Position numbers and translations under genes: made by a program. This document shows positions 21,661 to 44,519 of a stretch of 64,000 nucleotides of DNA, piece after piece (within the stretch, counting starts at the first letter, position 1; each line of letters starts with the position of its first letter). Origin of the DNA: Thelephora terrestris (taxonomy: Eukaryota; Basidiomycota; Agaricomycetes; Thelephorales; Thelephoraceae). The stretch covers positions 434,001 through 498,000 of the forward strand of contig WIUZ02000003.1 of NCBI GenBank assembly GCA_015956445.1, given 5' to 3'. Under the pieces are notes generated by a model. It saw only the letters and a program-made list of their open reading frames with translations. It did no database searches and had not been told where the DNA came from.

Positions 21661-21895
21661 AACTTGACATCATGGTATCTATCAAGAGGGCACGTCTAAG
21701 ATCTCCACACAAATATCACAGCCCACCACATTGTTGTGCCGACCTGCTTCAAACATTCTGTTTGGAAATCATAGGCAATGAGCTCTGCGCCTTAAGAGAA
21801 CTTGTACAAAAGCCGCACAGACAGATGGATGATCATTGGCTGAATTGCATCCATGCTTGACGCCAAGGATCCAACGGGTTCCAAAAATCAAAGGC
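21661..21895 (-). pseudogene. Inverted F-box promoter relic
   Basis: The minus strand resembles the upstream region of genes B and N (58320-58520), with a CAT at the expected start near 21672. It is abutted head-on by the plus-strand relic above, so the coding part is gone. This marks the edge of the F-box array; sequence beyond 21895 is different in character. Confidence 0.45.
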
Positions 21896-22215
21896 TTGGC
21901 GTCAACCCAACAACCTTATTGTTCTTGGCATCAGAACAGGTGTCAGGGAATTTATTCCGTAATTATCTGCACTTATCTGGTAGATAATGACAAAATAACC
22001 TCTTATGTAATGTGGGGCATGACATTATATAAGTTGACTCCCCATTTACAGTTGGGGAGGAACAACCATTTGGCTGATGGGAAAATAAGTTTGCAGCCAT
22101 TTTGCTGATGGGCTCACTTGTTGGATGGTCTCCTGCTGCCTTGCTTGAAGACATATCCAATGACCTAGTTTGATGAGACATATATACAAGCATGTGGGAG
22201 AAGCTGGCCAAAAAT
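21896..22215. other. AT-richer spacer before the tRNA-like array
   Basis: No gene recognised. The base composition changes from the GC-rich F-box array to a more AT-rich sequence. Confidence 0.4.
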
Positions 22216-22325
22216 AGCACTTGTAGGATTCGAACCTACACCCCCACAGGGTAGAAGATTTCAAGTCTACACCCCATGAGGAGCAGATTTCAAGTCTGCC
22301 GCCTTAACCTCTCAGCCAAAGTGCC
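22216..22325 (-). tRNA. tRNA-Ser(UGA)-like unit 1, atypical long variable region
   Basis: On the minus strand the unit has a 7-bp acceptor stem (GGCACTT with AAGTGCT), a GCTGAGAGGTTAAGGC D-arm, an anticodon stem GCAGA/TCTGC around CTTGAAA (anticodon UGA) and a T-arm GTAGG-TTCGAAT-CCTAC. A T-run follows, the usual Pol III stop. The region between anticodon and T arms is 43 nt, longer than normal for Ser tRNAs, and holds a second hairpin with a CTTGAAA loop. Functional status uncertain. Confidence 0.6.
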
Positions 22326-22404
22326 TTGGATCTGTGGTCAAGTGTGTGGCCTACATGCCATCGAAAATTGGCTCCTCAAGCATGCGGGGGAAGGTGGCAA
22401 AAAC

Positions 22405-22514
22405 AGCACCTGTAGGATTCGAACCTACGCCCTCACAGGATACAAGATTTCAAGTCTACACCCCATGAGGAGCAGATTTCAAGTCTGCCGCCTTAACCTC
22501 TCAGCCAAAGTGCC
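22405..22514 (-). tRNA. tRNA-Ser(UGA)-like unit 2
   Basis: A 110-nt unit like unit 1, with a few substitutions in the 3' half. It forms the outer end of the left inverted-repeat arm; its mirror image is 45444-45553. The spacers to units 1 and 3 (79-80 bp) resemble each other, so the array arose by tandem duplication with a period near 190 bp. Confidence 0.6.
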
Positions 22515-22594
22515 TTGGGTCCTGTGCCAAGTGTGCAGCCCATGTGCCATTGCAGAGTAGCTCCATAAGCACGTGGGAGAAGCTGGCCAAAAAT

Positions 22595-22655
22595 AGCACT
22601 TGTAGGATTCGAACCTACACCCCCACAGGGTAGAAGATTTCAAGTCTACACCCCA
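22595..22655 (-). tRNA. 3' part of a tRNA-Ser-like unit 3
   Basis: Only the second hairpin and the T-arm/acceptor 3' half are present (minus strand). The 5' half is replaced by the TGCTGA-rich sequence of the inverted repeat. A mirror copy lies at 45303-45363. Confidence 0.6.
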
Positions 22656-23624
22656 CATGAGCATCAGAAATTTTACCAATCTGCTGATTGCGCTGAACTC
22701 AGCACAAATTAGCATCAATTAGCATAAATCAGCACAGATCAGCATGTTCAGCATCAACATGAACAGCATAGAGCTCTTTTGTTCAGCATTATCTTCAAAA
22801 ATTGTACTTTGTTGCTTAACAATGCTGATCGGTGCTTAATGATGCTGATCAGTGCTTAATGAAGCTGATCAGTGCTTTGCCAACCACTGTTCATCGTGAT
22901 GAAGAATTGAGATTTTCACCAGTCCAGCTTCCATGCAAGGTCAAAACAACATAGCATCACTTGCTCAAAATCAAAGATGCAACAGCAACAATCAATGGCC
23001 CTGTATTTTCTGTTCTTGATCAAATCCCAATCCCTGAGACCAGGTCAGGCAGTTTCCACTGACACACCCAACAGTTCTCCCACTGACTCAGGAGCCTTTG
23101 TATGCTTGTTGCCTAGACATGGCTGTTGCTTCATCCAGCTTGCACGGAGTGACCTCTTGACTTTCTTCCAGTGTCTTTCTTCAGTGAGTTTCTGTAATTC
23201 TCATCAGGCCATAGATGTACTTATCTGTCAAAGGGCCCTTTTTTCCATACAAACATTCACGGGCCTGGCCACATTTCCCATATTCCTGCCAGGGCCATTC
23301 TTGCTTTAGCTACAGTTGAGCAACTCTCTACAACTCAGGTATACCCAAAAGGCTTCGAGGAAGTGCTACACTATCTCTGCCCAAACAATCTATAAGGACT
23401 GATAGATTGACTAAGTAGATTGTCCTACAATAGATATCTGTCAGGAACAAGGTATTTTAAACTTTTTATAACACGCTCTTTCTTCAAACTCTTCTTACCA
23501 TTTCTTATGTTTGAATGCTTCACCCTCCTTATCCTTCACACCCATCATTCAAACACACACATACGCGCATACATTCACAGCAATATGGAACAACTAGGCT
23601 ATACAAAATGCTTACACAATGTCC

Positions 23625-26272
23625 TCAAAAGTCGACTCGATCTACCGCAGGCCTCATCATCATCAACTGTTCGTCCTGGAGATTGAAGAACTGGCCCCTC
23701 CTCACCAGGATCTCTCCGAACATGGTATTGCCATCTTCCACGCTCAACTGAACCTCTAGTTCAAGCCGATAGGAAGAGATGCCTTCGAGCGGACCAATCA
23801 GCCTCCCAGATGTCACCGAACTGCGGAACACTTGGTCCCACATCTCCATCACCGGGTGACTGCTCGGCAGCACTGTCGACGTAGTCGAAGAGCGACCCTC
23901 ACTGGGGGCAAGGGGTCAAATACCCAGTGGGTACATGCTGAATACATTGTGATCACAGTCAAAAAGTGATCACAATGTGCCCAGTGGGGAAAATTTGAAT
24001 ACATTCAAAATTTACCTGGCCATGTGAACCCAATGTGCCCAGTGGGCACATTTTGATTGCGATCACAATGTACCCATCAATGTGATCTCAATGTGCCCAC
24101 TGGGGACATTTTGATTGCAATCACAATGTACACATCAATGTGATCTCAATGTGCCTGCTGTGCACATTTTAATTTCTTTCACAATGTCCCCATCAATGTG
24201 TTCCCAATGTACCCAGCTCATTACATAAGAGTTTCTTTCACAATGTTGTCCACAATGTGTCCAGCATGTGGCTGAGCCACTCATTCAAAATTCTTTCAAA
24301 GATTATCCAGTGATGTGTCCATAATGTCCCCAGGGGGTTCTTTTTGAAGTAATCACAATGTAATCACAATATTGTTTGATTTCACCATGAACTTTCAAAG
24401 AAATCACTATGTGTATGGCTGTACACATTCTAGACACATCACTGGATACTTTTTGAAAGAATTTTGAATGAGTGGCTCAGCCACATGCTGGACACATTGT
24501 GGACAACATTGTGAAAGAAACTCTTATGTAATGAGCTGGGTACATTGGGAACACATTGATGGGGACATTGTGAAAGAAATTAAAATGTGCACAGCAGGCA
24601 CATTGGGATCACATTGATGTGTACATTGTGATTGCAATCAAAATGTCCCCAGTGGGCGCATTGAGATCACATTGATGGGTACATTGTGATCGCAATCAAA
24701 ATGTGCCCACTGGGCACATTGGGTTCACATGGCCAGGTACATTTTGAATGTATTCAAGTTTTCCCCACTGAGCACATTGTGATCACTTTTTGACTGTGAT
24801 CACAATGTATTCAGCATGTACCCACTGGGTATTTGACCCCTTGCCCCCAGTGCCTCCGTCTCCCTCATTGGACCCCTGGGTGGGATCCTGCCTTGCGAGG
24901 TGAAGCTGGTGTCGAAGCTGGATCTCCGACTCGACCTGTCGGAAAGGACGGTGGACCTAGTATTGGAAGGATCGTCCCTCATCTCGACCAGACTGGTCAC
25001 CATCCGACTCAACTGGTCAAGGGTACAGATTAGCTGAGGGAGCCATATGATGAGCAAGGCGGCGTCGAGAGTGTTTACAACGCTGCTCCTTGATCACCAG
25101 ACGTACCTCAATGGTCCTCGGAGCATCTTTGGCCCGATCAACTGCCATGACCTCATCTTCGATCTTCACCAGTTGACTGATTGGCTGTAGCGGACAACGA
25201 CGACAGTTCTCCTTGTCGGACTCGGCCAAAGTGGAAGCCGGAGCCAGTGTCGGAACTGGAACAACGTTCTCGATTGGAGGCGTAGTGTAGGACAACGGGT
25301 TAGGCGATGGGAGTACCACCTCGTTGGCGTACTCTAGCTCAAACGGAATGTTGGCCGTACCCTGTCCAACCAAGACGGGACCTTCCTTGCAGTTACAGGT
25401 CTTGTCCTGCAAGGACTCGACCTGCGCCATCAACACGGACACCAGATCCTCGAGTTCCTCCATCTAGAAAGTGTCAGCTTCCCTCATTTCGTCTTCGAGA
25501 TGAGGAAAGCTACCTTATTGTCCCTCCTGTTCAAGGCACCCTTGATGTTGTTGTCCCGAACCTTCAGCCCGGCGATCAACTCTTGATGGTTAGCGACCAT
25601 CGCCGCCAATGCCTCGTTCGTCCCCTGCTGGAAGGTGGCCATAGTCTCCTTCATCAGAAGACCCTCCGCTGACAGACGAAGGATGTCTGCCTTTGCCTCC
25701 TTCACCTCACGCTCCAATCGTTCCACCTAGGCAGTTTGGTTAGTCAAGAGTCATACTCGAATATCCAAACGGAAAACCTACCTGGCTTTCCCCCTCTCGA
25801 ACGAGCGACCACAACAGCGTAGTGGAAGCTGTGGCGTGGCGAACGGCCCGAGGAACCGTTGCTCCGTGCTCCAACAGGTCCTGATCGTAGATCCCCCTCT
25901 GCAGGGTGTACCAGAGCTCCTTTTTGATCGGATGCTCCAGTTCCCTGAACCTACCCCTCATCCAGAAGATCACCTTCTCGGCAATCATCGACCGAACCCA
26001 GAGCTCATCGTCCCAGGTCAACCCCATCAAATGTGGGATCGTCTCCCTGAGACGTTCGGCGTCCACTTGCTTGACAACCTCTAAGATCTATTGGGAAAGA
26101 GTTAGAATTAACATTAAGGTTATTTCAAGCTCCCCCCCACCTGGTCATCGGTGGTGTAGGGAACCCCCGCCTCAGTGGCATAGGTCTTGCGGTTGGCGGC
26201 ACAGCGGTCGATGCGGGAGATGGTAGAGATACCATTGGCAACTTTGTAGGTATGGTTGTTGGGAAAAGACAT
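23625..26272 (-). pseudogene. Coiled-coil protein gene P1 of element E0
   Basis: Same layout as P3 (36324-38017): a short N-terminal exon beginning MSFPNNHTYKV, an exon with LTWDDELWVRSMIAEKV, a heptad-rich exon (LEREVKEAKADILRLSAEG), an exon with CNCKEGP and CRRCPLQ, and a last exon opening LSRMVTSLVE. MITE M2 is inserted in the last exon. Function unknown; no enzyme motif. The long coiled coil suggests an oligomeric or scaffold-like protein. Not expected to be functional. Confidence 0.6.
23900..24852. mobile_element. Palindromic CACTG MITE M2, 953 bp, inserted in P1
   Basis: It begins CACTGGGGGCAAGGGGTCAA and ends with the inverse. The two halves are close to reverse complements around a centre near 24376, so the whole element can fold back. 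The 3-bp duplication CCT (23897-23899, 24853-24855) is confirmed by the uninterrupted sequence in P2 and P3. A CACTA-like fold-back MITE with no coding frame. The relative M4 is at 41415-42251. Confidence 0.85.
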
Positions 26273-26383
26273 GTTGGTTGTCACGAACGCGTGACATAGT
26301 GAGCAAGATTGCACAAATAATTCAAGACATTGGTCTTATTCGGAGTAATAAAAATACAAAGGCAACTAACAGAAATTGGATAT

Positions 26384-27341
26384 CTAAACCAGAACAAAGG
26401 GATCTATGTCACAAGGGCAGTCCTGAGAGAAAGGGCAACGATGAGCGAAATGATGAGGGTTGTGCACACTCTGAGGACAGTACGAGTACACTCGAGTTAC
26501 CGGATCTTGCCAGCACTCCCTGCATCCCAACACATCATGAAACAAACTATCATGCATCTCCCGCTTCACGTCCGTCAACGCCACGCTCACTAAGGCGAAC
26601 CCATAACGGTCCTGGAGACCCGCTACCTCCACCTTCAGTTTCATCCGAACCTGCCGTGACTTGTCGGAGGGACGACAACGTTGTCCAGTACGAGTCATCG
26701 GACTCTTGCAACTCTTCTTCTGGGTTCTCTCCACCATCTGACGACTCGGAACAGGACTCCAAGGAGGGGACTGAGGGAGAGGAACTCCCTGATCGTGACG
26801 GAGGCGGAGGGACAATGGGGGAGTGAGGAGCTGCGTCGGTGCAATAGGATCCGCGGCACCGGTGACCGAAGTACCGGAGGAGAGATTCCTGGAAAGGTTT
26901 CCAATGTTCCAAAGCGAAGTGAGAGAAGTCCTCGTTAAGACTGTTGACAACAACATACATAACATCCATCCTCCTTTCCAACTTGAGGATTCTATCCTCT
27001 CTTTCTTGCTCCATCGCATCTCTCATTGGAGTGACTCCGGGAGCCCATCAACGAGTACGGTTGGAATCTTCATACCCAGCTTGTTCCCAGAACTCGGCGG
27101 GGGCGTTATGAGCCACCAAGAAATCAATGGCGACCTCGTTGTCGTGAGCGATGTTGGCAGGGGTGTCGTAGAGATGTTGTTCCACCTCAAGGGATGGAGA
27201 GAAGTTGAACGGAGTGGCAGCAGCATTGAGGAGAGCGTTGTTAGTAGCAAAAGCCGACATAGTAAGTAAAGGATGTTTAAGAGAGGAAGGTGGTAGTGGT
27301 AATTGTGGGAGAGGAAAAGAGGCAATGGAAGGAAAACCCAA
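26384..27341 (-). CDS. Coiled-coil protein gene of element E3
   Basis: Two overlapping minus-strand frames suggest at least two exons. The first (from about 27260) starts MSAFATNNALLNAAATPFN. The second (26550-27026) starts MRDAMEQEREDRILKLERRM, a strong heptad pattern, and ends in a Ser/Glu-rich acidic tail after a short Cys-containing patch. The splice sites could not be fixed with confidence. The plan (short head, coiled coil, Cys patch, acidic tail) resembles the P proteins, but no sequence identity is evident. Function unknown. Confidence 0.45.
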
Positions 27342-27844
27342 TAATTCCCCTAGATTATATACGTCTGACTCAATGGGACGCCAAAAAGGGAAGACAATAA
27401 GCCATTATCCACTCACACCCCAATTAGGACAAACGAACCCTTAACCCTAAATCACGATCCCATCAAATTGGAGAAATCCCCATCGCTCTTCTATTGCCAC
27501 CATGAAACGAGAGAAATCCCCAGCAAGCTCACAATGACTCATTTGCTATTGTTCCCTTACCTCGCACTCTCTACCTATCGTTCCAAGTTCCACTTCTCTG
27601 ACTCATTTACCCTGCCCTAAAGTACGCACAGACCATGTTGATCCCTGTTTCGTTTGTTGTAGAATAATGACTCCTGTAGAGAACTGGGTATATAAGGAAG
27701 AGCGTTCGCTCTCTTCTTTTCCCCATTCTCAATCTCTTCTGTACCTCCCTACCACAACCTCGAATAAACAAAGTAAGCTGAGGAATTCTCCTCACACCTT
27801 ACTTCCTTTCTGACTCTTTCAAGCAGGAATTCTCCTGCTAGTGT

Positions 27845-28468
27845 ATGTTCAGCGCCCCAAACCCATTCCCCTCTACCAGTCCCATCCAACGTCCGGTCAT
27901 ACCCGATGCTAGAAGATCTATCTGGGAGTATAAACTCATTAGAAGTCTTCAAGTAAACCGAACTGCCGGTTTACTTACTCACTTCCCTTACTATCGTCCT
28001 TTCGCAGCCCTCGACTCAGGAGTTACCACTCCCCCTTTCCTCTTAGGAGCTGATCATCAGTTCCTTTGGAATTCAGACACTACTGAGAGCGTCCTAGCGA
28101 CCGTCTACTTCAGTATAAGTCCCGCCTTCTACTTTCCCAATCCTCGCGTCCACCTCACCACTAACGTTCATACCCATTCCCCTGCTATCATCGTCTTGTG
28201 GTGGGAAATTCCAACTGAATTACCTTACTCGGTCTTAGAATACCTTGTGAACTTTGAACGCCTCAGCGACCAAGACTTCGACCCGTTCATCCAGCAATTA
28301 AATCAGTTTTGCCAGGATTACCATTCGCCCGTCCATCCTTATCAAACCGAGTCACCACTTGCTCTTGATATTCCACCGTCTCTCACTCCCACCCCCGGAA
28401 CCCCCTTCAACGCTCGACCCGACACTCCTCATCCATTCGCTAATCCTCTAGCGCTCCCTGAAAAGTGA
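27845..28468 (+). CDS. Unrecognised 207-codon frame in element E3
   Basis: A single open frame from ATG 27845 to a stop at 28466-28468, only 20 bp before the element end. It is rich in Pro, Phe and aromatic residues, with a central stretch PAIIVLWWEIPTELPYSVLE. No signal peptide, no membrane helix and no known motif. It is divergent from the coiled-coil gene, which implies a shared promoter near 27400-27800. The lack of stops over 620 bp in a C-rich sequence is suggestive, not proof, of coding. Confidence 0.4.
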   Translation: MFSAPNPFPSTSPIQRPVIPDARRSIWEYKLIRSLQVNRTAGLLTHFPYYRPFAALDSGVTTPPFLLGADHQFLWNSDTTESVLATVYFSISPAFYFPNPRVHLTTNVHTHSPAIIVLWWEIPTELPYSVLEYLVNFERLSDQDFDPFIQQLNQFCQDYHSPVHPYQTESPLALDIPPSLTPTPGTPFNARPDTPHPFANPLALPEK

Positions 28469-28903
28469 GCAGGCCCACAACCCTGACATTGGTAAGATGA
28501 TGGGGAAGTTGCTGGTGTTGCTGATCAAGGATGGCTCCAAGAAGACGTCCTTCTTATAGCCTAGATCGGTGATCCTTCACGTGACCTACCTCAACGAACC
28601 TCATTGGTCCGGGTCACATCAACTTCCGCCCTTGTACCATTATCGTTGGCTTACTACATCAAGCTGACACCTCGGCCCGCGGGACGGCCTTGGAAGAACT
28701 TCGTTCCGGAATGCCTAGAACGCGCGCGCACTAAAAATAGGTCTCATGACCTTGACGACCCCTTTACGACCCCTTTACGACCCCCTTACAACCCTGATGA
28801 CTCATTTATGACTTCATGATAACGACCAACCCTGGACCCTGATCACACACGTGGACAGTCACATCACAATCTCCTAACCGGAGGAAGGAATCGCCGTTAT
28901 TCG

Positions 28904-31900
28904 TGTCAGGGCCACTCTACCCTAACAACTACCAGTGCACTGAGCCGACTCCGCAGAGTACTCACTAGTCCAACTAGCTTGTGAGAGAACGATCACGTCT
29001 CTATTCTTCCGGTAGGTTGTCCGAGGTCACTACAAGTCAGGTCGAAATCCTAAAGAGAAACCCAACCTAAACCGTACTTCGTTCGGTTTAACAAGCAAGG
29101 GTTTATCCCTACAACAGGATTGATGACTCCACCAGTTAATCGACTGGACGCTCGAGGTGTTCTAATATGACTGCTGGGAGTCTATAGTTACGAGGCGCAG
29201 TTGACGCGCAGAGCGGGAGGGAGAGCAGATGGGGATGTCTTGGATCAAACAAGAAACTCTGACTTGTCCTTAACTGCAACTGGGCTGAGAAGGGCAGAGG
29301 ATTTCCTGAGGTAACAAAACTAAGGTACTACGATACAGCCACAGTTGCTACTTATACTAAAGGAGTGGCCATGACGTCAATACCCTAATATACCCTTATC
29401 AAGTCCAGAACAAAGGGAGATAAGGAGTGTGAGAACGCTAAGTAAGGGAAGCGAACAAAGGTGACGCGTGGGAGAGTAAAGGACAAAGGGCCTTACTAGC
29501 GTGTGAAGGATTGCATAAAAGATAAGGAATGTCCGCATGAAACATAGGGGTGAAGATAACACTAGTCCTAAAAGAAAAAGGGGCATGGGGTCATGAAAGT
29601 TCGTACCTGGGGATCACACCCAAGGGTCAGGTGGAAACCTCCCATTGCTTCGTGCAATTTTCGAGCGGCTCCGGGATAAGGGACCATGCAGCATCCCTTG
29701 TTGTCTGTAGGCGGTAACAGCATCACGGACTAGTGGCAACCTCACGTAGGTCCGAGCATGAGGAGCGCAGGCCTAGACTCATGGGACATGAGGGATTACA
29801 GATTCGCCGGCGTTTCACGCTAACGGCTACTCCACATGCGCTGGGCTAACCAGAAGAATCCTAAGGCAATGCTTCCAAATAGCGGCGAGTCCTTCCTCCG
29901 GTTAGGAGACTGTGATGTGACTGTCCACGTGTGTGATCAGGGTCCAGGGTTGATCGTAATCGTAAAGTCATGAGGGGTTGTAAAAGGGGTTCGTGATGTC
30001 ATAAAGGGGTCATCAGGGTCATGAGACCTATTTTTAGTGCGCGCGCGTTCTAGGCGTTCCGGAACGAAGTTCTTCCAAGGCCGTCCCGCGGGCCGAGGCG
30101 TCAGCTTGATGTAGTAAGCCAACAATGATGGTACAGGGGCGGAAGTTGATGTGACCTGGACCACTGAGGTTCGTCGAGGTAGGTCACGTGAAGGATCACC
30201 GATCTAGGCTATAAGAAGGACGTCTTCTTGGAGCCATCCTTGATCAGCAACACCAGCAACTTCCCCATCATCTTACCGAAACATGTCTTTCCCCAACAAC
30301 CATACCTACAAGGTCGCCAACGGCATCTCCACCATCTCTCGTATCGATCGTCGTGCCGCCGCTCGCAAGACCTACGCCTGTGCGGCTGGGACTCCCTATA
30401 CCACGGATGATCAGGTATGGGGGAGACCTAGAGCTTAGTATGTTTGCACTAACGCCTTCCTCTAGGTAGAGGAACGTTCTTTCGGCGTTGATGTCAAACT
30501 AACGGCTTCTAGATCTTGGAGGTTATTACGGAGGTGGACGCCGAACGTCTCAGGGAGACAATGCCTCATTTGGTGGGGTTGACCTGGGACGATGAGCTTT
30601 GGGTCCGTACGATCATCGCCGAAAAGGTGGCCTTCCGAATGAGGGGTAGGTTCGGGGAGCTGGAGCATCCGATCAAGAAGGAGCTTTGGTACACCCTGCA
30701 GAGGGGAATCTACGATCAGGACCTATTGGAGCACGGAGCAACCGTTCCTCGGGCCGTCCGCCATGCCACTGCCGCCACGTCGTTGTTGTGGTCGCTCGTT
30801 CGGGAGGGGGAGAGCAAAATAGGTTCTCCGTTTGAATATTCGAGTATGGCTCTCGACTAATCAAAATGCCTAGGTTGAACATTTGGAGCGCGAGGTGAAG
30901 GAGGCGAAGGCAGACGTCCTTCGTCTATCAGCAGAGGGTCTTCAATTGAAGGAGACCTTGGCTGCCTTCCAGCAGGGGACGAACGAGGCGTTGGAGGCAA
31001 TGGTCGCCAACCATCAAGAGTTGATCGCCGGGTTGAAGGTTAGGGATAACAACATTAAGGGGGCGTTGGCCAGGAGGGATGAAAAGGTAATGCCGCTTTC
31101 ATCATTTGCTTAGAATGATGGAAGCTGACATTTCCTAGACCGAAGAACTCGAGAACGTGGTGGCCGTGTTGACAGCGCAGGTCGAGTCTTTGCAGGACAA
31201 AACCTGTAACTGCAAGGAGGGTCCCAAATTGGTTGGTCAAGGGACAGCCGATGTTCCGTTCGAGTTGGAGTATGCCGACGAGGTGGTACTTCCATCACCT
31301 AACCCGTCGTCCTATGCGACGCCTCCGATCGAGAACGCGGTTCCCGTTCCGACTCCGGCTCCGGCTTCCACTCTGGCCGCTTCCGACAAGGAGAACTGTG
31401 GGCGCTGCGTCTTGCAGCCGATCCATCGGTTGGTGAAGATCGAGGATGAGGTCATGGAGGTTGACTGAGCTGAAGATGCTCCGAGGGTCGCCGAGGTACG
31501 TCCGGTGACTAAGGGGCAACGTTGCAAACGCTCTCGACGCCGTCCTGCTCATCGTATGACCACGTCGGCTAATCCTTACCCTCGACCAGTTGAGTCGGAT
31601 GGTGACCTCTCTGGTCGAGGTGGGGGACGAGAGTTCCGCTATCGAGTCAACCGTCCCTACCGACAGGTCGAGTCGGAGATCCAGCTTCGCCACCAGCTAC
31701 GACTCGCAAGGCAGGATTCCGCCCAGGGGTCCGATGAGGGAGACGGAGGGTCGCTTGCCGACTACGTCGACAGTACTGTCGAGCAGTCACCCGGTGATGG
31801 AGATGTGGGACCAGGTGTTCAGCAGTTCGGTGACATCTGGGAGGCTGATCGGTCCGCTCGAAGGCATCTCTTCCTATCGGCTTGAACTAGTCGTTCAGCT

Positions 31901-32208
31901 GAGTGCCGAAGACGGTGACGCCATGTTCGGGGAGGTTCTTGCGAGGAGGGGCCAGCACTACGATCTCCGGGATGGACAGTTGATGACCTTCAGGCCTGTC
32001 GTAGATAGAGTCGACTTTTGAGGACGTTGTATAAGCCTTAGTATAGCCATGTTGTTCCGTATTGTCGTGAATGTATGCGCGTGTGTGTGTTTTGAATGAT
32101 TGATACGAAGGATAAGGAGTGTGAAGCATTCAAAACATAAGAAGTGGTAAGAAGAATTCGAAGAAAGAGCGTGTTATAAAAAGTTTTAAAAATACCATGT
32201 TCCTGACA
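28904..32208. mobile_element. TGTCA...TGACA element E2, 3.3 kb, inserted in E0
   Basis: It starts TGTCAGGGCCACTC and ends ATGTTCCTGACA, with a perfect 5-bp duplication ATTCG (28899-28903, 32209-32213). The 5' third (28904-29895) is the terminal segment seen also in E0 and E5. Then come a promoter segment and the plus-strand coiled-coil gene P2. It is inverted relative to its host E0, so the flanking promoter segments face each other as a palindrome (28490-28898 versus 29896-30283). Nearly whole; its gene is probably interrupted about once. Confidence 0.8.
30283..32021 (+). pseudogene. Coiled-coil protein gene P2 of element E2
   Basis: Five coding segments separated by short introns, in the order described for P3. 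ATG 30283 (MSFPNNHTYKVANGIS) opens a 44-codon first exon ending at a GTATGG donor. Later segments hold the LTWDDELWVRTII block, a coiled coil, CNCKEGP, and the LSRMVTSLVE-led tail ending at 32019-32021. It is slightly decayed compared with P3. Function unknown. Likely no longer makes a full product. Confidence 0.6.
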
Positions 32209-33190
32209 ATTCGGAAGGAGTGCCTTAGACTCCTTTTGGTTAGCCAAGCGAATGTGGAAGTAGCTGTTAGCATGAAACACCGACGAATCTGTAATCCCTC
32301 ATGTCCCATGAGTCTAGGCCCGACCTCCTCATGTTCGGACGTACGTTGAGGTTGCCACTAGTCCGTGATGCTGTTACCGCCTACAGACAACAAGGGATGA
32401 TGCATGGTCCCTTATCTCGGAGCTGCTTGAAAATTGCACGAAGCAATGAGAGGTTTCCACCTGACCCTTGGGTGTGATCCCCAGGTATGAACTTTCAGGA
32501 CCCCATGCCCCTTTTTCTTTTAGGATTAGTGTTATCTTTACCCCTATGTTTCATGTGGACATTCGTTATCTTTTATGCAATCCTTCACACGCTAGTAAGG
32601 CCCTTTGTCCTTTATTCTCCCACGCGTCATATTTGTTCGCTTCCCTTACTTAGCGTTCCCACACTCCTTATCTCCCTTTGTTCGGACTTGATAAGGGTAT
32701 ATTAGGGTATTGACATCATGGCCACTCCAGTAGTATAAGTAGCAACTGTGGCTGTATTGTAGTACCTTAGTTTTGTTACCTCAGGAAATCCTCTGCCCTT
32801 CTCAGCCCAGTTGCAGTTAAGGACAAGTCAGAGTTTCTTGTTTGAACACAAGGCATTCCCACATCTGCTCTCCCTCCCGCTCTGCGCGTCAACTGCACCT
32901 TGTAACTATAGAACCCCAGCATTCATCATATAGAATACCTCAAGCGTCCAGTCGATCACCTGGTGGAGTCATCAATCCTGTTGTAGGGATAAACCCTTGC
33001 TTGTTAAACTGAACGAAGTACGGTTTAGGTTGGGTTTCTCTTTAGGATTTCGACCTGACTTGTAGTGACCTCGGACAACCTACCGGAAGAATAGAGAAGT
33101 GATCTTTCTCTCACAGCTAGTTGGACTAGTGAGTACTCTGCGGAGTCGGCTCAGTGCACTGGTAGTTGTTGGGGTAGAGTGGCCCTGACA

Positions 33191-34188
33191 CTCCCTATGT
33201 CATAGACTCGTCATTAGGTCTTTTGACATCATTTGGTTTGTTCCCTCTTGCTTCCTACATTCTCAGAGCCTCCTAGATAAGCCTCTGTATCTGATAGACT
33301 CAGCAGAGACCAATCCAGGGGACTGATTCCCATGTTTTCCTCTCCCTATTGTGCTCCTCTCGTTGTTGTCATCTCCCTATAGTCTCCTGTGTCCCCCCTA
33401 TTGTTCTCATCGTCATACCTGCGTCCCTGCGTTCTCGTCGTCGTCACTAGCGTCCTGTTGTCATCCCGAAGATCCCGACCTCCCGAAGTTCTCGTCGTCA
33501 TCCTGAAGTTTTCCCTTGTCGTTCCCTTGTCTGTTTCATTGATTCCTCTCTGTTATCTTTAGTTATCTTTAGTTCCCTCTTGATATCTACATCTCCCTAC
33601 ACGTCCCAACGTTCCTGACGTTCCCGACGTTCCTGATGTTCCCAATGTTCCCAATGTTCCCAATGTTCCCAATGTTCCCAATGTTCCCAATGTTCCCAAT
33701 GTTCCCAATGTTCCTGATGTTCCCGATGTTTCCCTTCATTTCCCTACAGTTCCCTACATGTCCCTACGGAGCTAGGAGGCATCGTACGACCAAGGACCAC
33801 CTTCATTGACGTTGACAGGGCACTCCATCTTCTCCCCATCGGACCTTAGCCCACATAGCCCCTGTTCACCGGATGCACACACACGGTATTCCCATCCATG
33901 CCCTTTCCACGCCTTCCAACACGCCTTCCAACACCATCGTCCCTTCGAACACTATCACAGCACCCAATACCGGAGATGCCAGTGACGGTGCGTGTTTGAT
34001 TTGCCATATGAATGACCAAATTTTTACCAGATCATCAGATGGGCCCACCGAATCAGCATGAAGTATTACATTACAATATGTAACCGGCCGAATCATGTCT
34101 ACCTCATGTTTGTTGCACCAATCCATATATAAGCTTGATTCCCCCCCCTTCAAACCCTAGGTCTCTCCCACCAGGGTACTCGCTCATT
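33191..34188. other. Spacer with 9-bp minisatellite and a TATA-like promoter
   Basis: A T/C-rich, low-complexity sequence. 33600-33740 is a tandem array based on AATGTTCCC. Just before the next gene, a TATATAAG at about 34127-34134 is a plausible TATA box. No gene recognised. Confidence 0.5.
33600..33740. repeat. Minisatellite with a 9-bp unit
   Basis: Around eight near-perfect copies of AATGTTCCC sit in the centre, with degenerate copies (GACGTTCC, GATGTTCC) on both sides. Typical slippage repeat. Confidence 0.85.
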
Positions 34189-36135
34189 ATGGCTCAACCA
34201 GACGCCCCTGGCAGCCCCATGCCTCCCCCACTAGCTGGGTTCCTGGAGTACCTCGCACTCTTTTCTTCTCAGAATGGCTCTCAACCCTCCCCCACCTGTA
34301 CCCCAGCCCATATCTCAGCGTGCTAACGTCATTCCTGCCTTGCCAGAAACACCTATGCCAGTGCTGACCGCAGGTTATGAATTCAACCAGCCTGGCCGTG
34401 GGACAGGGGGTGCACTCACAGAGAAGGTGAAGGTCTCAAAGAAAATCATGGTGTCTGCTACAAAGCAGAAGTCATTTCTTGACACTGATGTCATTGACCA
34501 ACTCCCAGCAAGTCCTGAGATTGTTGAGATCCCCAACCCAAAAAAAGTGAACAGCCCAAGACGGTGGCAGCAAAGGTCAGTGTTATCTCGATTTGCTTAG
34601 ATTGCCGCTGATAACGCATCAGCCCAGGCGCAAGCTAAGCGCAACAAGGCGCAGGCCTCCAAGAAATCAGCCAAGTCGGCAACAACCCCTGTTCCTGCCG
34701 GACCAATCCCAAGCCCGGTACGACCCTTCCTTCCCTTCTTTAACCCTGCTAACGCCCTTTCTCGATAGATCTCGACCCCTGCTCCCCCAATGCCTATACG
34801 CCCCACACCGCGCTTAACCAAACCGACTGTCAAGGTCCCAAAACCAGAACCAGTAGTTGATTCACTGATGGATGACATCTTCACCTCAGGGCTCCAGGAT
34901 ATTGAAAGCAGCAGTGAAAGCGATGATGAGACTGAGATTCCTGCCCCAACGAACAGCAGCCATCCTTCGACGTCCATTCAGAACCAAAATACCACGGTTC
35001 GTGCATTGTGCTTTATGGCACATCAAAATTTATTGATTCATTTCTAGCTCCCAGTGATCGACCTCGTTCATGCGGCTCTCGCTCAGTACAGAGGAGTCTC
35101 TCTTCCACTGCGTCCGGTCAAGCCCACTCCTGTTCCACCATCTCAGGACGACAATGCGAAGCAATTGAAGGGCATGGGATGTTACCCGAGTGGATCACAG
35201 AAAGTCCTGATCAAATCCAAGGACCTCTGCCGCTCTTCAATCTTACTCTACAGCTCCTTCCCTGGTCCCAATGACGTCCGTGTCATGGCTACTGAGAGTT
35301 TCCATGAAATATACACAACCCTATGCAGCGAGGGCCTCGTTCTCGAGCCTGGTACGTCCACTTAGCAGAGAGACATTTTTAATTGCTCACATGTTCTACC
35401 GAACAGAATTCTTGTGGAACAACCATATGCTGTTAATCGTGAGTGACCTTGATCATCAAGGTGTCAAGTTGGCTAACGTGTTGAATGGAACCACCACAGT
35501 TACTGAACGAGATCTCAACCTGCCGAAGTGAATTGAAGAAGCTCAGACAAGGCTCTGCTCCACCTGCCCATCTCGGACATCCGTTCAATGGCCTCGAGAA
35601 CAGAAAAGAAGAACACCAAGGCTCCGCCACAACCTACCCATGATCCCAGGCACGTTCGCGCCATTGTTGTCAATCGCCTTTTCCACTTTGCATACACTGG
35701 GGGCAAGGGCACCTGGAATTGGTGATTACATCCTGATTACATGGTGAGTTCATGTGCACTTTTCAATAATTGTAATCCCTGATTCTAGGTTGATTACATT
35801 TCAAATGTTACCTTGACATGTAATCCAGCCAATGTCCACCACAATTCCATTTGAAATGTTCTCAACAAATGTTTCTGGGATGCTTTTGACCTGTCGGCAA
35901 AAATGATACTGCAATGTAATCAGCATGTTCTTCAATCGTCCGAGATGTAATCTAAATGTGCTCAAAAATATGAGATGTTTTCACAATGTACCCACTGGGC
36001 ACATTCAGAAAACATTGCTTGGGAACATCTTGAGGAAATTTCAAATGGAGTTAGTGGCAACAGTTGAATTACATGTCAAGGTAACATTTGAAATGTAATC
36101 AGCCTGGAATCAGCGATTACAATTATTGAAAAGTG

Positions 36136-39100
36136 TGTCAGGAACATGGTATTTTTGAACTTTTTATAACACGTTCTTTTGTCGAACTCTTCTTACCATT
36201 TTTTATGTTTGAATGCTTCACACTCCTTATCCTTCACCCCCCCCCCCTTCATTCAAACAACGAAAAGCACAGTGTATTCAAGGCACATACAGAATGCGAC
36301 ACTAGTACTGCTACCAAGCTCTATCAAAAGTCGATTGAATCTTCTACGGGCACCCAATGCTCAGCCTGTCCATCCCGGTTCAGCCAACCTCCTCGCCCAG
36401 CGAGCAACCCTCCAAACATGGTGTCCCCGTCCTCTGCGCTCACCAGGACGAACAGCTCAAGACAATATGAAGAGACTCCTTCGAAGGGTCCCGTCAGCCT
36501 CCCAGAGGTCACTGAATGGTTGAACACCTGGTTCAACATCTCTAGGATCAGGTGTCCCCTCGGGAGCACTGTCGACGTAGTCGAAGAGCAATCCTCCGTC
36601 TCCCTCATCGGACCCCTGGGTGGGATCCTGCCATGTGAGGCGAAGCTGGTGGCGGAGCTGGATCTCTGACTCGACCTGTCGGTTGGGACGGTTGACCCTA
36701 TATCGGAAGGATTGTCCCTCGTCTCAACCAGACTGGTCACCATCTGACTCGACTGGACGAGGATAAGGGTAAGCCGAGGGAGCCATTTGATGATTGTTGC
36801 GGTAACGAGAGCGTTTACAACGCTGCCCCTTCATCACCGGACGTACCTCAACCACCCTCAGAGCATCCTCAGCCCGGTCAACTTCCATGACCTCATCCTT
36901 GATCTTCACCAGTCGACTGACTGGCTGCAAAGGGCAACGACCACAGTTCTCCTTGTCGGACTCGGCCAAAGTGGAAGCCGGAGCCAGAGTCAGAAGAGGA
37001 ACCGCGTTCTCTACGGGAGGCGTGGCGTAGGACAACGGGTTAGGCGATGGCTGTACCACCTCGTCAGCGTACTCCAACTTGAATGGAACAGCTGCTGTTC
37101 CCTGCCCAACCAAGATGGGACCTTCTTTGCAGTTGCAGGTCTTATCCTGCAAGGACTCGACCCACGCCGTCAAAACGGACACCAAGTCCTCGAGTTGTTC
37201 AGTCTAGAGAAAGATGTCAGCTTCCCTCATTGTGTCTTCGAGATGAGGAAAGCTACCTCATCGTCCCTCCTCTTCAAGGCCCCCTTGATATTGTTGTCCC
37301 TAACCTTCAGCCCGGCAATCAACTCCTGATGGTTGGCCACCATCGCCTCCAACGCCTCGTTTGTTCCCTGCTGGAAGGCGGCCATAGTCTCCTTCATCAG
37401 AAGACCCTCCGCTGATAGACGAAGGACGTCTGCCTTCGCCTCTTTCACCTCGCGCTCTAAACATTCAACCTAGGCCGTTTGGTTAATCGAGAGTCATACT
37501 CGAATATCCAAACTGAAAACCTACTCGGCTTTCTCCCTCTCGAATGAGCGACCACAACAGCGTCGTGGAAGCGGTAGCATGGCGGACGGCCCGAGGAACA
37601 GTCGCCCCGTGCTCCAACAGGTCCTGATCATAGATCCCCCGCTGCAGGGTGTACCAGAGCTCCTTTTTGATGGGATGCTCCAGTTCCCCGAACCTACCCC
37701 TCATTCGGAAGATCACCTTCTCAGCGATCATTGATCGGACCCAGAGCTCATCGTCCCAGGTCAACCCCATCAAATGTGGGATCATATCCCTGAGACGTTC
37801 TCCGTCCACCTGCTTGACGATGTTCAAGATCTAATTGGGAAAAGAGTTAGAATTAACATTAAGGTTATTTCTAGCTCCCCTCCACCTGCTCATCGGTGGT
37901 GTAGGGAACCCCCGCCTCAGAGGCATAGGTCTTGCGGGTGGCTGCACGGCGGTCGATGCGAGAGATGGTGGAGATCCCATTGTCGACTTTGTAGGTGTGG
38001 TTGTTTGGGAAAGACATGTTGGTAAGATGATGGGGAAGTTGCTGGTGTTGCTGATCAAGGATGGCTCCAAGAAGACGTCCTTCTTATAGCCTAGATCGGT
38101 GATCCTTCACATGACCTACCTCGACGAACCTCATTGGTCCGGGTCACATCAACTTCCGCCCTTGTACCATTATCGTTGGCTTACTACATCAAGCTGACAC
38201 CTCGGCCCGCGGGACGGCCTTGGAAGAACTTCGTTCCGGAACGCCTAGAACACGCGCGCACTAAAAATAGGTCTCATGACCTTTACGAACCCCTTTACGC
38301 CCCTTATGACTCATTCATGACATCACGATAACGACCAACCCTGGACCCTGATCACACACGTGGACAGTCACATCACAGTCTCCTAACCAGAGGAAGGACT
38401 CACCGTTATCCGGAAGTATCACCTTAGGATACTTCTAGTTAGCCCAGCGCATGTGGAGTAGCCGTTAGCGTGAAACACCGGTGAATCTGTAATCCCTCAT
38501 GTCCCATGAGTCTAGGCCCGACCTCCTCTTGTTCGGACGTACGTTGAGGTTGCCACTAGTCTGTGATGCTGTTACCGCCTACAGACAACAAGGGATGACG
38601 CATGGCTCTACTCGCGAATCCAGCTGGCGCCGCCAAGTAAAGGGAGATTGCCACCATACCCTTGGGTGTGATCCCCAGGTACGAACTTTCATGCCCCCAT
38701 GCCCCTTTTTCTTTTAGGACTAGTGTTATCTTTACCCCTATGTTTCATGTGGACATTCGTTATCTTTTATGCAATCCTTCACACGCTAGTAAGGCCCTTT
38801 GTCCTTTATTCTCCCATGCGTCATTCTTGTTCGCTTCCCTTACTTAGCGTTCTCACACTCCTTATCTCCCTTTGTTCGGACTTGATAAGGGTATATTAGG
38901 GTATTGACGTCATGGCCACTCCAGTAGTATAAGTAGCAACTGTGGCTGTATTGTAGTACCTTAGTTTTGTTACCTCAGGAAATCCTCTGCCCTTCTCAGC
39001 CCAGTTGCAGTTAAGGACAAGTCAGAGTTTCTTGTTTGAACACAAGGCATTCCCACATCTGCTCTCCCTCCCGCTCTGCGCGTCAACTGCACCTTGTAAC

Positions 39101-39384
39101 TATAGAACCCCAGCGTTCATCATATAGAATACCTCAAGCGTCCAGTCGATCACCTGGTGGAGTCATCAATCCTGTTGTAGGGATAAACCCTTGCTTGTTA
39201 AACTGAACGAAGTACGGTTTAGGTTGGGTTTCTCTTTAGGATTTCGACCTGACTTGTAGTGACCTCGGACAACCTACCGGAAGAATAGAGAAGTGATCTT
39301 TCTCTCACAGCTAGTTGGACTAGTGAGTACTCTGCGGAGTCAGCTCAGTGCACTGGTAGTTGTTGGGGTAGAGTGGCCCTGACA
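36136..39384. mobile_element. TGTCA...TGACA element E5, 3.25 kb, inserted in MITE M3
   Basis: It starts TGTCAGGAACATGG and ends GGCCCTGACA, with the perfect 5-bp duplication AAGTG (36131-36135, 39385-39389). The inverted repeat arms of M3 show the original, uninterrupted site. Layout from the right: a terminal segment (about 38407-39384) with a TATA-like AGTATAAGTAGC, a promoter segment (38018-38406), and the minus-strand gene P3. Best preserved copy; it looks whole. No LTR, integrase or polymerase present. Confidence 0.8.
36324..38017 (-). CDS. Coiled-coil protein gene P3 of element E5, five exons
   Basis: Start ATG at 38017. The second exon (37525-37830) holds LTWDDELWVRSMIAEKV and HPIKKELWYTLQRGIYDQD. 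The third (37257-37469) is heptad-rich. The fourth (from 37203) opens with EQLEDLVSVLTAWVESLQ, then CNCKEGP and CGRCPLQP. The fifth opens in LSRMVTSLVE style and ends at 36324. The last intron uses a GTACGT donor in all copies. The predicted length is about 480 residues. No enzyme motif, membrane segment or nuclear signal is obvious; the Cys pairs could bind metal (guess). The same exon plan in P1, P2 and, loosely, P4 argues for selection on the protein at some time. Confidence 0.6.
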
Positions 39385-41006
39385 AAGTGCACATGAACTC
39401 ACCACGTAATCAAGATGTAATTACTGATTCCAGGTGCCCCTGCCCCCAGTGATACCTCAACAATCCTCCGACACTAGAGGTAGGCGTCTTCTCCCTTTCA
39501 TCATCAGTTGACTGAAGGATTGACAGGGCAGCCGCCTCGCTCACCCAATCCTTGAGAAGCTCTGTAAGAGCTTCTATGAGGAAGACAAATGGCAACGTGC
39601 CCTCAAGTGCCAGGCATTTGGGGACAAGGAATGGAAATCTCCACAGTATCGCTGTGCCCTCAAAGAAAGGCAAACTGGCCACTTTGTCCAGAAGGCGTTT
39701 GAATGCGCCAAGTACATTGATGGCTATGGCCACACTTGAGGATGGATCGACTGCTGCATTCAAGATGAAGATGACGACCTCATGGTTGATCACCTCAGTT
39801 CCTGGGCAACTGACAGGTATTTCCGGCTCCCCTTCTTCTGAGCTGAAGAGCATCGGCTGATCGCATTCACCAGCTCATTTGTTCAAAGTCTCCCAGAGTC
39901 CGAGGACAATGACGAAGATGACAACAATCCCGCAGACCAGAGAGGATGACACCCGCCAATTTGCCGATAACGACTCTTGCCTCTTTGCCTCTTGTTTTGC
40001 TCCATTCCGTGTTTGATTTTAATGACATTGCTGAAACCTAGCACGCTTGTTTATGGTACTCTATATACGCCTCTGAATACAGAGAATTGTCAGGGCCACT
40101 CTTCGCCCTTCAGGTACCAGTGCTGTTGGTGAGTCGCAACTCCAACCAACAAGAAACAATGGGGCAAAGGGGGAACAACTTCCCTATATCCACCCAAAGT
40201 CTACGTGGTCCAAAACGCGATGGACGAGCGTTCTCCGGTAGGTTGTCCGAATTCACAGCAGGAGTGCCGAGCCTCTATCAGATAAATCCCTATCGTCTTC
40301 TGAGGACAGATATAAGAGCCCGAGGATGGCGCCTCAAACTGGTGCTTGATCCAGAGAGCGGCGAGGAACTCCTTTTCGTAAGCGCGTTCGCCGATTCTGG
40401 ATGCAAGGCCGAGAGAGAGAGGAGAGCGAACGTGTTCAGAGAGTTACTCGATAAGCTCTTCAGTGGCCTACAGCAAATACACCGATGCTGCAAGGAGAAG
40501 AGGACTTCCCGAGATATCAAAGATGGGAAGTCCTCAGCTACTCTACTGGTACCTATATAGGAGAGTGGCCGGAACATAGATAACCCTATCTAATAATAAC
40601 TCGGAGCAGAGAAGGACCGAGAGTAAGCTGGAACAGTAAGCGGCCCAGGTTATAGAATAGAAATGATAAAGGAATGACTAATGGGTCAGGGTTCGTGAGA
40701 GAATAAGAAAGGGGTCATGACGTCGTGTGGGAAAGGAATGACAAAGGATAATATCACATGTAAGGACGAACCAATGAGAGGACAACGCGTCAGCTCGTCC
40801 GATCGGGACAACAAAAGACCGAGTGGGGCGTGAATGTCGAGGGCGAATGTATGAAGAGTCTAGACCGGTGAAACGATGGTCTGATCCAATGGCGAATAGG
40901 ACGCGAGCGCTGTCGATGGTCGAATAAAGCGTAGCGCGAACCGGCTGTTGGATCCATCAAACTCCCTTCTTCCCAAACCAACAATCCCACCAACCAACTA
41001 CTCATC

Positions 41007-43574
41007 ATGCCCATGATCTCTGACCGTGTCTTCCGTGCTGAGAATAGCACTGCTACCATCGAGTCCGCGGATCCTCGGTCCGTGCAGAACAAGAGTTACT
41101 TCCTGCCCAATGCCAACGTGGCGTACCCCAGTTATCGCGAGGTGCGACGTCACGTGTCGCCGTTTGTTGGCAACAACTGACATCGCATTTGTAGATCTTC
41201 GTGGTTGCCGACAAGGTGGATGCTCGACAACTGGAGGCGACGATAGCCAAGCCTCCCAGCTACCTGACCATGGACGACGAGCTGTGGTACCACAACTTGA
41301 TCGACCACAAGCTACAGGAATCGATGCGAGGGGTAACGTTCAACACCGAGTTGCGCATGCCGTATGAGACTCCGGTGGCCTCGTCGTTGTGGGGGCTTCT
41401 GCGGATGGGGATCTCACTGGGGACAAGGGGTCAAATACCCAGTGGGTACATGCTGAACACATTGTGATCACAGTCAACAAGTGATCAAAATGTGCCCAGT
41501 GGGGGAAATTTGAATACATTCAAAATGTGCCTGGCCATGTGAGTCCAATGTGACCAGTGGGCACATTTTGATTGTGATCACAATGTACCCATCAATGTGA
41601 GCTCAATGTGCCTGCTGTGCACATTTTAATTTCTTTCACAATGTTCCCATCAATGTGTTCCCAATGTACCCAGCTCATTACATAATAGTTTCTTTCACAA
41701 TGTTGTCCACAATGTGTCCAGCATGTGGCTGAGCCACTCATTCAAAATTCTTTCACAAAGTATCCAGTGATGTGTACATAATGTCCCCAGGGGGTTCTTT
41801 TTGAAGTAATCACAATGTAATCACAATATTGTTCAATTTCATCATGAACTTTCAAAGAAATCACTATGTGTATGGCTGTACACATTCTAGACACATCACT
41901 GGATACTTTGTGAAAGAATTTTGAATGAGTGGCTCAGCCACATGCTGGACACATTGTGGACAACATTGTGAAAGGAACTATTATGTAATGAGCTGGGTAC
42001 ATTGGGAACACATTGATGGAAACATTGTGAAAGAAATTATAATGTGCACAGCAGGCACATTGAGATCACATTGATGGGTACATTGTGATCACAATCAAAA
42101 TGTGCCTACTGGGCACATTGGACTCACATGGCCAGGCACATTTTGAATGTATTCAAATTTCCCCCACTGGGCACATTGCGATCACTTGTTGACTGTGATC
42201 ACAATGTGTTCAGCATGTACCCACCGGGTATTTGACCCCTTGCCCCCAGTGTCTACAATCTGGGGAATGGAGAAGGAAGGTGGCCTGGAGCGACTCGCTC
42301 CCAACACTACACAGCAGCCGTTGGTCACCGCCTTTGGTTTCTATTGAGGACCGAACAGAAAGCGGTGAGTCGGTCTGTGCATCCCGCTTGTGGGATAACA
42401 CTGATGGACTTGTAGAATGAGCGGCTGAAACACGAGGTGAAGGAGGCAAAGGACGACGCCCGCAGGATGTACTCGGAGGCGTTGGACATGAAGAAGACGC
42501 TCCTGCTGATGAACGACACGCTCCGCATGACGTTTGAGAGCGAGATGCTGGCGATGCGCGAGGAACACAACCAGTTGGTCGAGTCCTTGAAGGAACGGGA
42601 CGACACCATCCAATGGGACCTAATTGAGGTTGACCGACGGCTCAACCGTCATAGAAGGGCTCTGAATGAGCTGGACACCAAGGTCGGTGCGACTTCTCCT
42701 GGTCTTTGTCCGAGAGAGCTCATGCCACTTCCCAGGTTGACACGTTGGACGATGCCTTGCCGTTGCTGGGCGCTCGGGTCGAGTCGATGAGCGAGCGGTT
42801 GTGCCACTGCCGTACTCGTTCGGTGGCTGCGGTTCGCGACGAGTCCGAAGACGAGTCGATTCCGGATTGGATGGCTTCCCCAATAGGTGGGATGTCGGTT
42901 GACATATTTGACTTGTCCACTGACATCCTTTTTAGCTTCCGATGGTTCGTACCGCACGCCTACGCATACTGATGGCGGGGAGGAGGTCGTCCACGAGACG
43001 TCCGAGGAGACAGCCGTGAACCCGGTTAGCAGTTCTCCCGAGTTGGAGTACGCGGGGGAGAACGAGGTGGCTGTTCCGATTCCGCCTCCGTCGATCTCGC
43101 CGGTGCGTGGGCAGCGTTCTATCCGTGCTCGTCGTTGGGTTCCTTATCGTGGGGCACTTCGTCCAGCGCACCGCATGCGTCCCAGTAACCCAGACGCCGT
43201 CCGCCAGGGTGGAGACATCGAGTCCACCGTCCTATTCCAACGCGACGATGTTGCAGTGTCGCCTGGATCGTGGGGAGCTAATCCCGGTGGAGTCCGTCGA
43301 CGTGAATGGCTTAACCGACCTTACGCTCTTGTCGGTCCAGCGCGCAGCGGAGGCCATTCGCCTGGTGGCTCAACTGACTGAGAGAGTGGAGGGTTGGTCA
43401 GTCCAGAGGACTCTGGATCAGACTACGGTCGATTCAGCGAGGAACCGCCTGCGCGCCGAGGTTCAGCTGGCCGTAGCTCATCGTCTGGAGGAAGCTCGGG
43501 TCGTCGAGAGTGCCTCGGAGGGGACGGAGGAGGAGATTGCCAGTGCTGAGGAGTACTGGCAGACTAGATCTTGA
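41007..43574 (+). pseudogene. Coiled-coil protein gene P4 of element E4
   Basis: A diverged homologue of P1-P3 with the same plan. The head exon ends near PSYRE at a GTGCGA donor; a second exon has MDDELWYHNLIDHKL; a heptad-rich exon begins near 42420 (LKHEVKEAKDDARR); the next has LGARVESMSERLCHC. The tail includes a long helical segment ending at 43574 (QRAAEAIRLVAQLTERVEG). MITE M4 sits in the second exon. Unknown function; not expected to be functional. Confidence 0.55.
41415..42251. mobile_element. Palindromic CACTG MITE M4, 837 bp, inserted in P4
   Basis: It begins CACTGGGGACAAGGGGTCAA and ends with the inverse (CCCCTTGCCCCCAGTG). The two halves are reverse complements around about 41833. 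The 3-bp duplication is TCT (41412-41414, 42252-42254). Very similar to M2 but shorter by about 115 bp. Confidence 0.85.
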
Positions 43575-43831
43575 CGGTTAGAGTATGCGCGTTAGCTTCT
43601 GTCCATAGGGTCGGTGCGGATTCAACTCCGTGGGCCATTCGTCTTGTGTCTTCGTCGTGGGTTCGCCCGCTTGTAATATCATCCGTGCCTTTGTCTGTGT
43701 TTCTTGATGACGTGTGAGTCGTGATAAGGGAAATGACAAGATAGGAAAGGGGTATAGGTAAGGAAAGTGGGCGAAAGTTGGGCGTGAAAATGGTTCAAAA
43801 AGGGAATAAAATTCGGCACGCTGACAAGAAT

Positions 43832-44519
43832 GTTTTTTCATTAATGTGCGAGCCTGATATGTTCCACCTCATCCCACCCCCCCTGGAAAAAGCACCTGAC
43901 ACCCGACACGTCACCCAGAGTCACAGAATCCACAGAGCCTCACAGCAACCGATCAGTTTTGTTGATGACAGGAGAAAAGGAGTGGAGTCTAATGGAAATG
44001 ACACGGCGTCGGATGCGCGATGTCTCACACAGTAGTTCAGCCATGTGCCGCCTTTATTTCTTTCGTTTCTTTGTTCCGTTAGTTCTCTTTGTACGAACGG
44101 CCTTTCAGCCACATGGCCACATGGTCTATTAGACAGTATATAAAGAGTAGCTACGTAGGTCGTGAACTCCACCGGTTTGTAGCCGCCTGGAGTTCACGAC
44201 AGCTGGAATCTCTATCTACGCCACTTTAAGAATTCCAACAGAGTCTGGTAGTGAGAAAATTTGACGAAAAAGCAAGCCTCCACTCCCCAACAGCTATTGT
44301 AATTGGTGGAAGCCTTTGGTTACTGCTGAAGCTGCCACCATTTTGACAGTATCTAAAGTACTGTATTTCCTTCTGTACAGAACAGGCTTACTATTGCAGG
44401 TTAACTTCTCTGCCTGAATGTGTTGCAGGCAACCTTGAGGCCCAGCAAGAGGCTGTTCTGTGAGATATCAGAGAGAAGCCCAGCCTCTCTTTTCTGTGTT
44501 GGACAAGGAAACTAGGCCA
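43832..44519. other. Spacer between E4 and the right inverted repeat
   Basis: No gene recognised. It continues the sequence interrupted by E4. A TATATAAAG at about 44138-44146 could be a promoter element pointing right. The sequence next to the repeat (44240-44518) has no counterpart beside the left arm. Confidence 0.4.

Follow-up and report, generated by a model that had tools for sequence, protein, structure and literature searches.

The window analysed in this study, a stretch of 64,000 nucleotides of the Thelephora terrestris genome, contains a cluster of insertions that begin with TGTCA and end with TGACA. E0 (23439..33190, gag-pol orientation plus) is a solo long terminal repeat (LTR) of the E5 family and is interrupted by a palindromic insert (23900-24852) and by two further insertions, E3 (26279-28488, plus strand, termini TGTCACG...CCTGACA, target duplication TTGGT) and E2 (28904-32208, gag-pol orientation minus, target duplication ATTCG), the latter being a solo LTR as well. 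Two more solo LTRs follow, E5 itself (36136-39384, plus, AAGTG) and E4 (40088-43826, minus, AGAAT), which belongs to a second chromovirus family and holds another palindromic insert (41415-42251). The solo LTRs E0, E2, E5 and E4 measure 2.9-3.3 kb, and E2, E5 and E4 each consist of one complete LTR with its target duplication, the internal region being absent.

Several other repeats were observed around these insertions. The two palindromic inserts (about 950 and 840 bp, with arms that are 98 and 96% complementary) are related to each other, and both are located within the LTR genes of E0 and E4 that are described below. The whole cluster is flanked by inverted arms of 1042 bp (22399-23440 and 44518-45559), which are 99.5% identical and 21 kb apart, and the left arm stops where E0 starts. 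Each arm contains an Rfam tRNA match of 111 bases (22404-22514 and 45444-45554) and a further one lies at 22215-22325; these are the three that Rfam gives between 20000 and 47000, and ARAGORN found no tRNA in the window. Related repeat arrays (at least 60% alike) are present on both sides of the cluster (982-5491, 12327-15443, 18173-21655 and 48644-63499), with encoded N-termini which we take to be F-box-like. A 9-bp tandem repeat (33586-33747) lies between E0 and E5.

A preliminary description of this region had reported TGTCA/TGACA ends with perfect 5-bp duplications for E2, E3, E5 and E4, and these were found to be exact. When all 66 TGTCA sites of the window were combined with all 72 TGACA sites at distances of 50-9000 bp, just five combinations had a 5-bp match, four of them being these insertions; chance was thus rejected as the source of the four, and the fifth (19121-25674) was taken for a chance match. 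The uninterrupted sites that had been described as readable were borne out for E2 and E3 by comparing E0 with E5, as E5 has a single TTGGT where E0 reads TTGGT-E3-TTGGT, and a single ATCCG where E0 reads ATTCG-E2-ATTCG. E0 does share the ends, as had been claimed, with TGTCA/TGACA-type termini at 23439 and 33190; its flanks showed no 5-bp duplication on comparison, though the ends and the LTR sequence are present. Most of the copies examined across the genome carry such duplications. Of the 29 full-length matches to E5, 24 are flanked by a perfect one, E5 (L009) and E2 (L037) among them. The E3-type family has ends of the same kind, and a duplication was found in 5 of its 8 copies examined. 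Four of the five other E5-type copies are the LTRs of two full-length elements with matching outer flanks, and one (L015) is without a duplication. A genome search for the TGTCAGG pattern alone was uninformative (3090 and 3072 sites, against 1955 and 1979 for the reversed control). The ends and duplications had been interpreted as pointing to an integrase of the LTR type, and our data uphold this view; integration by a Ty3-type integrase would account for both.

Comparison of E5 with the genome from which the window comes gave at least 60 matching pieces, at least 29 of them full-length, with 40 of 635 candidates scored. Two direct pairs of E5-type sequences lie on the same strand 9.3 kb apart, with LTRs identical at 3300/3300 and 3299/3299 positions and with 5-bp duplications on the outside only (CTGCC and AGGAT). 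E4-type sequences form direct pairs at two loci, with two mismatches per pair in LTRs of 2931 and 2934 bp and with outer 5-bp duplications ATGTC and GTTTT. Both families (two elements each) have direct LTRs, TG...CA ends and a short outer target duplication. The 6.0-kb interior of the E5-type pair (L039, L040) codes for a Gag that has a CCHC knuckle and for Pol, in which the Pfam domains (scanned in L039) are, in order, protease, RVT_1 (RT), RNase H, integrase, SH3_Tf2-1 and chromodomain; the interior of one E4-type element (L041) is that of a second chromovirus, with the same order of protease, RT, RNase H and integrase and a chromodomain. In the full-length copies gag and pol are two overlapping ORFs, and a purine-rich tract is also present. 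Between the two families Pol is 61% identical and Gag 29%. Because the E5- and E4-type sequences are paired around gag-pol, E0, E2, E5 and E4 can be identified as solo LTRs, the first three belonging to one Ty3/gypsy chromovirus family in T. terrestris and E4 to a second. The absence of long terminal repeats that had been noted earlier does not hold, since these insertions are themselves LTRs, their ends belong to Ty3/gypsy elements and their gag-pol parents are present elsewhere in the genome. Solo LTRs arise by recombination between two LTRs, and such an event would have removed gag-pol and left a single LTR with its duplication. E5-type LTR ends occur at least 410 times in the genome (up to 3 mismatches of a 30-mer; 0 for the control), a count that pools solo, nested and truncated copies, and among 94 matches of an RT search 8 are E5-type and 3 are E4-type RT copies.

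The primer site, 2 nt inside the internal region, is complementary to a segment of the LTR over 12 nt in the E5 type and over a different 11 nt in the E4 type, and this segment sits 34 nt (E5 type) or 33 nt (E4 type) after TATAAG. Such a match was reached by 5 of 2000 shuffled controls for the E5 type and by 11 of 2000 for the E4 type. The E5-type complement was measured on L023/L039 and its position was then located in E5, where TATAAG lies at 38928-38933 and the 12-mer complementary to the primer binding site of its relative, presumably the start of R and the self-priming segment, at 38962-38973 (both on the plus strand). The primer site thus pairs with the element's own presumed 5' RNA end, in a Tf1-like manner. 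As the presumed RNA start puts R near position 2880 of the 3.3-kb LTR, U3 would be about 2.9 kb long.

Inside the U3 of each LTR, in both the E5 and the E4 type, there is a gene with at least three introns that is antisense to gag-pol, the internal gag-pol ORFs of both families running on the opposite strand. In E0 this gene (23628..26272, minus strand) has exon 1 at about 26272-26138, exon 2 at 26087-25779, exon 3 at 25726-25514 and exon 4 from 25460, with its 3' part split by the palindromic insert, and by eye it matches the NCBI predicted protein P0002. The E2 gene (30283..32021, plus strand; exons 30283-30414, 30513-30818, 30874-31086 and 31139-31495, and a 3' part to 32021) is broken, as exon 4 contains one in-frame stop and the donor of intron 2 is altered. 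Exons 1-4a are intact in the E5 gene (36327..38017, minus strand). E4 carries a homologue of the E5-type gene (41007..43574, plus strand; exon 1 at 41007-41141, exon 2 from 41195), which is interrupted by the palindromic insert. The proteins of the two LTR types share 33% amino acid identity in their aligned parts, and introns 1 and 2 of the E4-type gene are, by eye, at places matching the E5 type. A TATA box lies 73 bp upstream of the ATG in the E5-type gene, and a search before the E4-type gene found none. The gene is predicted from its sequence to be transcribed, spliced and translated.

Of the 29 copies compared, 27 have exons 1-4a (1008 nt) undamaged. Intact copies are favoured in this sample, since it was made up of the sequences that match E5 best over its full length; it also includes two identical pairs. 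The two exceptions are L028, with a frameshifting deletion, and E2, whose altered donor is the one departure from the splice dinucleotides kept in all copies. The 3' part of the gene has two overlapping frames, one constrained up to about LTR position 2860 and the other between about 2870 and 3110. The NCBI models place a fourth intron in sequence that is itself constrained; this intron is doubtful, and the 3' end of the gene is uncertain. No Pfam family was matched by the protein, and a PDB profile search gave weak matches only, the best (E 0.1) being to a GCN4 (coiled-coil) fusion; the product is a probable coiled-coil protein. At NCBI the U3 gene products are annotated as hypothetical proteins of T. 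terrestris, many of about 481 aa. Among 79 proteins matched, metagenome fragments included, the first 61 all carry the T. terrestris name, and outside this species the word-based search found only metagenome or unnamed entries. The spliced, cellular-looking genes of the preliminary description thus exist as intron-bearing genes; that they are captured cellular cargo is not supported, since the genes of the E5- and E4-type LTRs are homologous to each other and have no Pfam family. The LTR gene behaves as the third gene of the element rather than as cargo, and since LTR ends number at least 410 and RT copies 8, many LTR scars should still hold a copy of it.

The dN/dS of exons 1-4a (NG86) was calculated for 27 E5-type copies, one of each identical pair being dropped, and had a median of 0.105 and a maximum of 0.20 over 351/351 pairs. 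In 80 sampled pairs the shifted forward frames gave 1.7 and 2.8, and the reverse frames 1.3, 0.20 and 3.4, where the frame with 0.20 shares third positions with the gene. It was found that 24 of 25 copies (L028 dropped) are stop-free, against 2.9 expected if the same substitutions were placed randomly. In exons 1, 3 and 4a third positions differ by 0.20-0.22, as against 0.06-0.07 for first and 0.01-0.05 for second positions; the divergence of introns 1 and 3 is 0.16 and 0.30. When two full-length elements were compared, third positions differed by 12% in pol and gag and by 16% in the LTR gene, and first positions by 1.6-2.8% in all three alike. These substitution patterns indicate that purifying selection acts on the E5-type LTR gene much as it does on gag and pol. 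Substitutions at positions 1/2/3 number 51/27/57 when private to one copy, against 61/35/202 when shared, and this weaker third-position bias of private mutations suggests that selection acts on the active element, individual solo copies seeming to be partly released from it after insertion. Third positions are still 12-20% different in the 25 pairs whose introns are most alike (1-4%), and the 1.37 kb of non-coding sequence before the ATG (L024 LTR positions 1-1370, in gene orientation) is 3-5% divergent, against 21% at silent sites. The low divergence of this non-coding part and of the introns in close pairs could be due to constraint or to exchange between copies. Hypervariable silent sites in the LTR exons were also considered and were dropped, silent divergence in gag and pol being nearly equal.

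E3 carries an antisense ORF (26550..27260, minus strand) with one in-frame stop, whose relatives are about 244 aa long and start with MSA, and a second ORF of 208 aa (27842..28468, plus strand) on the presumed gag strand, ending 20 bp before the right end. The antisense ORF has at least 150 matches in the genome (150 of 353 candidates scored), 19 of them with a stop by eye and most without, and the similarity of its protein to the E5- and E4-type LTR proteins was not beyond chance. Same-strand pairs of E3-type left ends 11.03 and 10.96 kb apart occur among 100 of 266 left ends. One such pair (C23) encloses about 8.7 kb, of which 5.5 kb was read. On the expected strand this part has CCHC matches and aspartyl-protease-like ones, none of which reaches the Pfam cut-offs, and RT was not seen in it. 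No gag-pol was present in the candidate pairs of L043, L046, L047, L048 and L049, which were mostly nested repeats and were rejected; an ORF between E3 copies (L043:2370-3437, minus strand) may resemble Plavaka-type transposases. The probable identity of E3 is a solo LTR left by a third LTR element, and this parent may itself need help in trans. The autonomous partner that had been called for therefore exists as full-length gag-pol elements for the E5 and E4 types, RT not being seen for E3, and movement in trans, which falls away for the LTRs of gag-pol elements, is possible for E3 alone.

Our data indicate, with a probability of about 0.85, that the cluster consists of solo LTRs of chromoviruses carrying a constrained, antisense, intron-bearing third gene. 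The integrase-type ends and intron-bearing genes of the preliminary description are part of this reading; the new class of cargo elements is not. Cargo elements without LTRs, moved in trans by the integrase of an unrelated element, would be in keeping with 24 of 29 copies standing alone with a duplication, with at least 410 LTR ends as compared to 8 RT copies and with the lack of RT in the 5.5 kb read for E3, but full-length gag-pol elements have these same sequences as their two LTRs and carry duplications outside only, which refutes this origin for the E5 and E4 types and makes it very improbable overall. Transposons of the Ginger/TDD type have a transposase that resembles LTR integrase and makes TGT...ACA ends, and DNA transposons of this kind would likewise show short inverted ends and 5-bp duplications. 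However, a Pfam scan of the four ORF products of the elements detected no integrase, and in the full-length copies two LTRs stand in direct orientation, together with a self-priming site and a purine-rich tract; the chance of such an origin is close to nil. Also very improbable is the view that the LTR gene is a relic, a chance ORF or an antisense non-coding RNA. In the window, E2, E3 and E4 carry broken copies, and the gene is known here from its sequence, but a third-position excess in exons 1, 3 and 4a beside 16-30% divergence of introns 1 and 3, a dN/dS of 0.1, 24 of 25 stop-free copies against 2.9 expected and the protein homology between two families all speak for a coding gene.

The antisense placement could explain the presence of an intron-bearing gene inside a retroelement, since genomic RNA is the complement of the gene and its introns would not be spliced and would survive. 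By analogy with Ty1 copy number control and with antisense genes of other retroelements, the LTR protein most likely acts in trans to regulate how its own element is transcribed, assembled or integrated. The promoter of the gene would point away from that of gag-pol, and as every LTR carries the gene, its dose would follow how many insertions have taken place, whether these are full-length or solo. We give somewhat less than an even chance to the view that the protein aids the element instead of restraining it, by nuclear import, integration targeting or suppression of silencing. It agrees with the retention of the gene in recent full-length copies, and selection on the element itself suffices for the observed dN/dS; there is no decisive point against it, and no fold or domain in Pfam or PDB favours either side. 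If the protein is indeed a self-regulator, a stronger and rather unlikely version is that the gene is a self-encoded device for immunity and counting, in which each insertion, even a solo LTR, adds one more functional copy of a repressor that acts in trans. Hundreds of solo LTRs would then record past insertions and restrain the element, and new variants of the U3 gene would escape the old ones.

The elements resemble the Tf1/sushi chromoviruses (Tf1, Tf2, Tj1) in gag, protease, RT, RNase H, integrase, SH3_Tf2-1, chromodomain, 5-bp duplications and a self-complementary primer site. Unlike those elements, they have LTRs of 2.9-3.3 kb with a U3 gene, and gag and pol in two overlapping ORFs. The self-priming arrangement is described for Tf1 and Tj1 in the excerpt of PMC4600332 used here. 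Additional antisense ORFs are described for maize Grande (gene23), RIRE2, Retand and PvRetro13 and for Boty of Botrytis (brtn) in the sections of PMC7264820 compared; these are likewise extra conserved genes antisense to gag-pol, in Grande with their own promoter, and for the plant elements their role is given there as undetermined. According to the same sections, however, the gene of the plant elements is placed between pol and the 3' LTR and would be lost from a solo LTR, whereas the Thelephora gene has introns and lies inside each LTR. An antisense gene is reported for HTLV (PMC10186651), and one was proposed in HIV-1 LTR DNA, going by the title of PMC1654176; these are partial parallels in antisense reading from LTR promoters, and the hosts differ. 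In crapaud of Podospora anserina, going by the portion of PMC10787394 compared, only the U3 half of the LTR varies, and 150 full copies stand against 1455 terminal repeats. It is alike in its variable U3 and in terminal repeats outnumbering full copies, but the variable U3 part is below 200 bp and a U3 gene is unmentioned in that portion. Copy number control of Ty1 by p22/p18, as given in the excerpt of PMC8458377, is a model of a self-encoded trans-acting restrictor, but p22/p18 is Gag-derived and internal, and the likeness is one of analogy only.

The elements themselves are retrotransposon scars, and the unusual part is the complete, intron-containing antisense gene, conserved as a protein, within each LTR. 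No spliced antisense gene enclosed in a retrotransposon LTR was found in a literature search whose coverage mostly excluded subscription journals. A gene that lies inside the LTR, bears introns, is constrained to nearly the same degree as gag and pol, and is retained in solo LTRs opens a clear test of whether retroelements carry self-regulators. For T. terrestris itself it is also a warning, as many 'hypothetical protein' entries of the genome are LTR genes.
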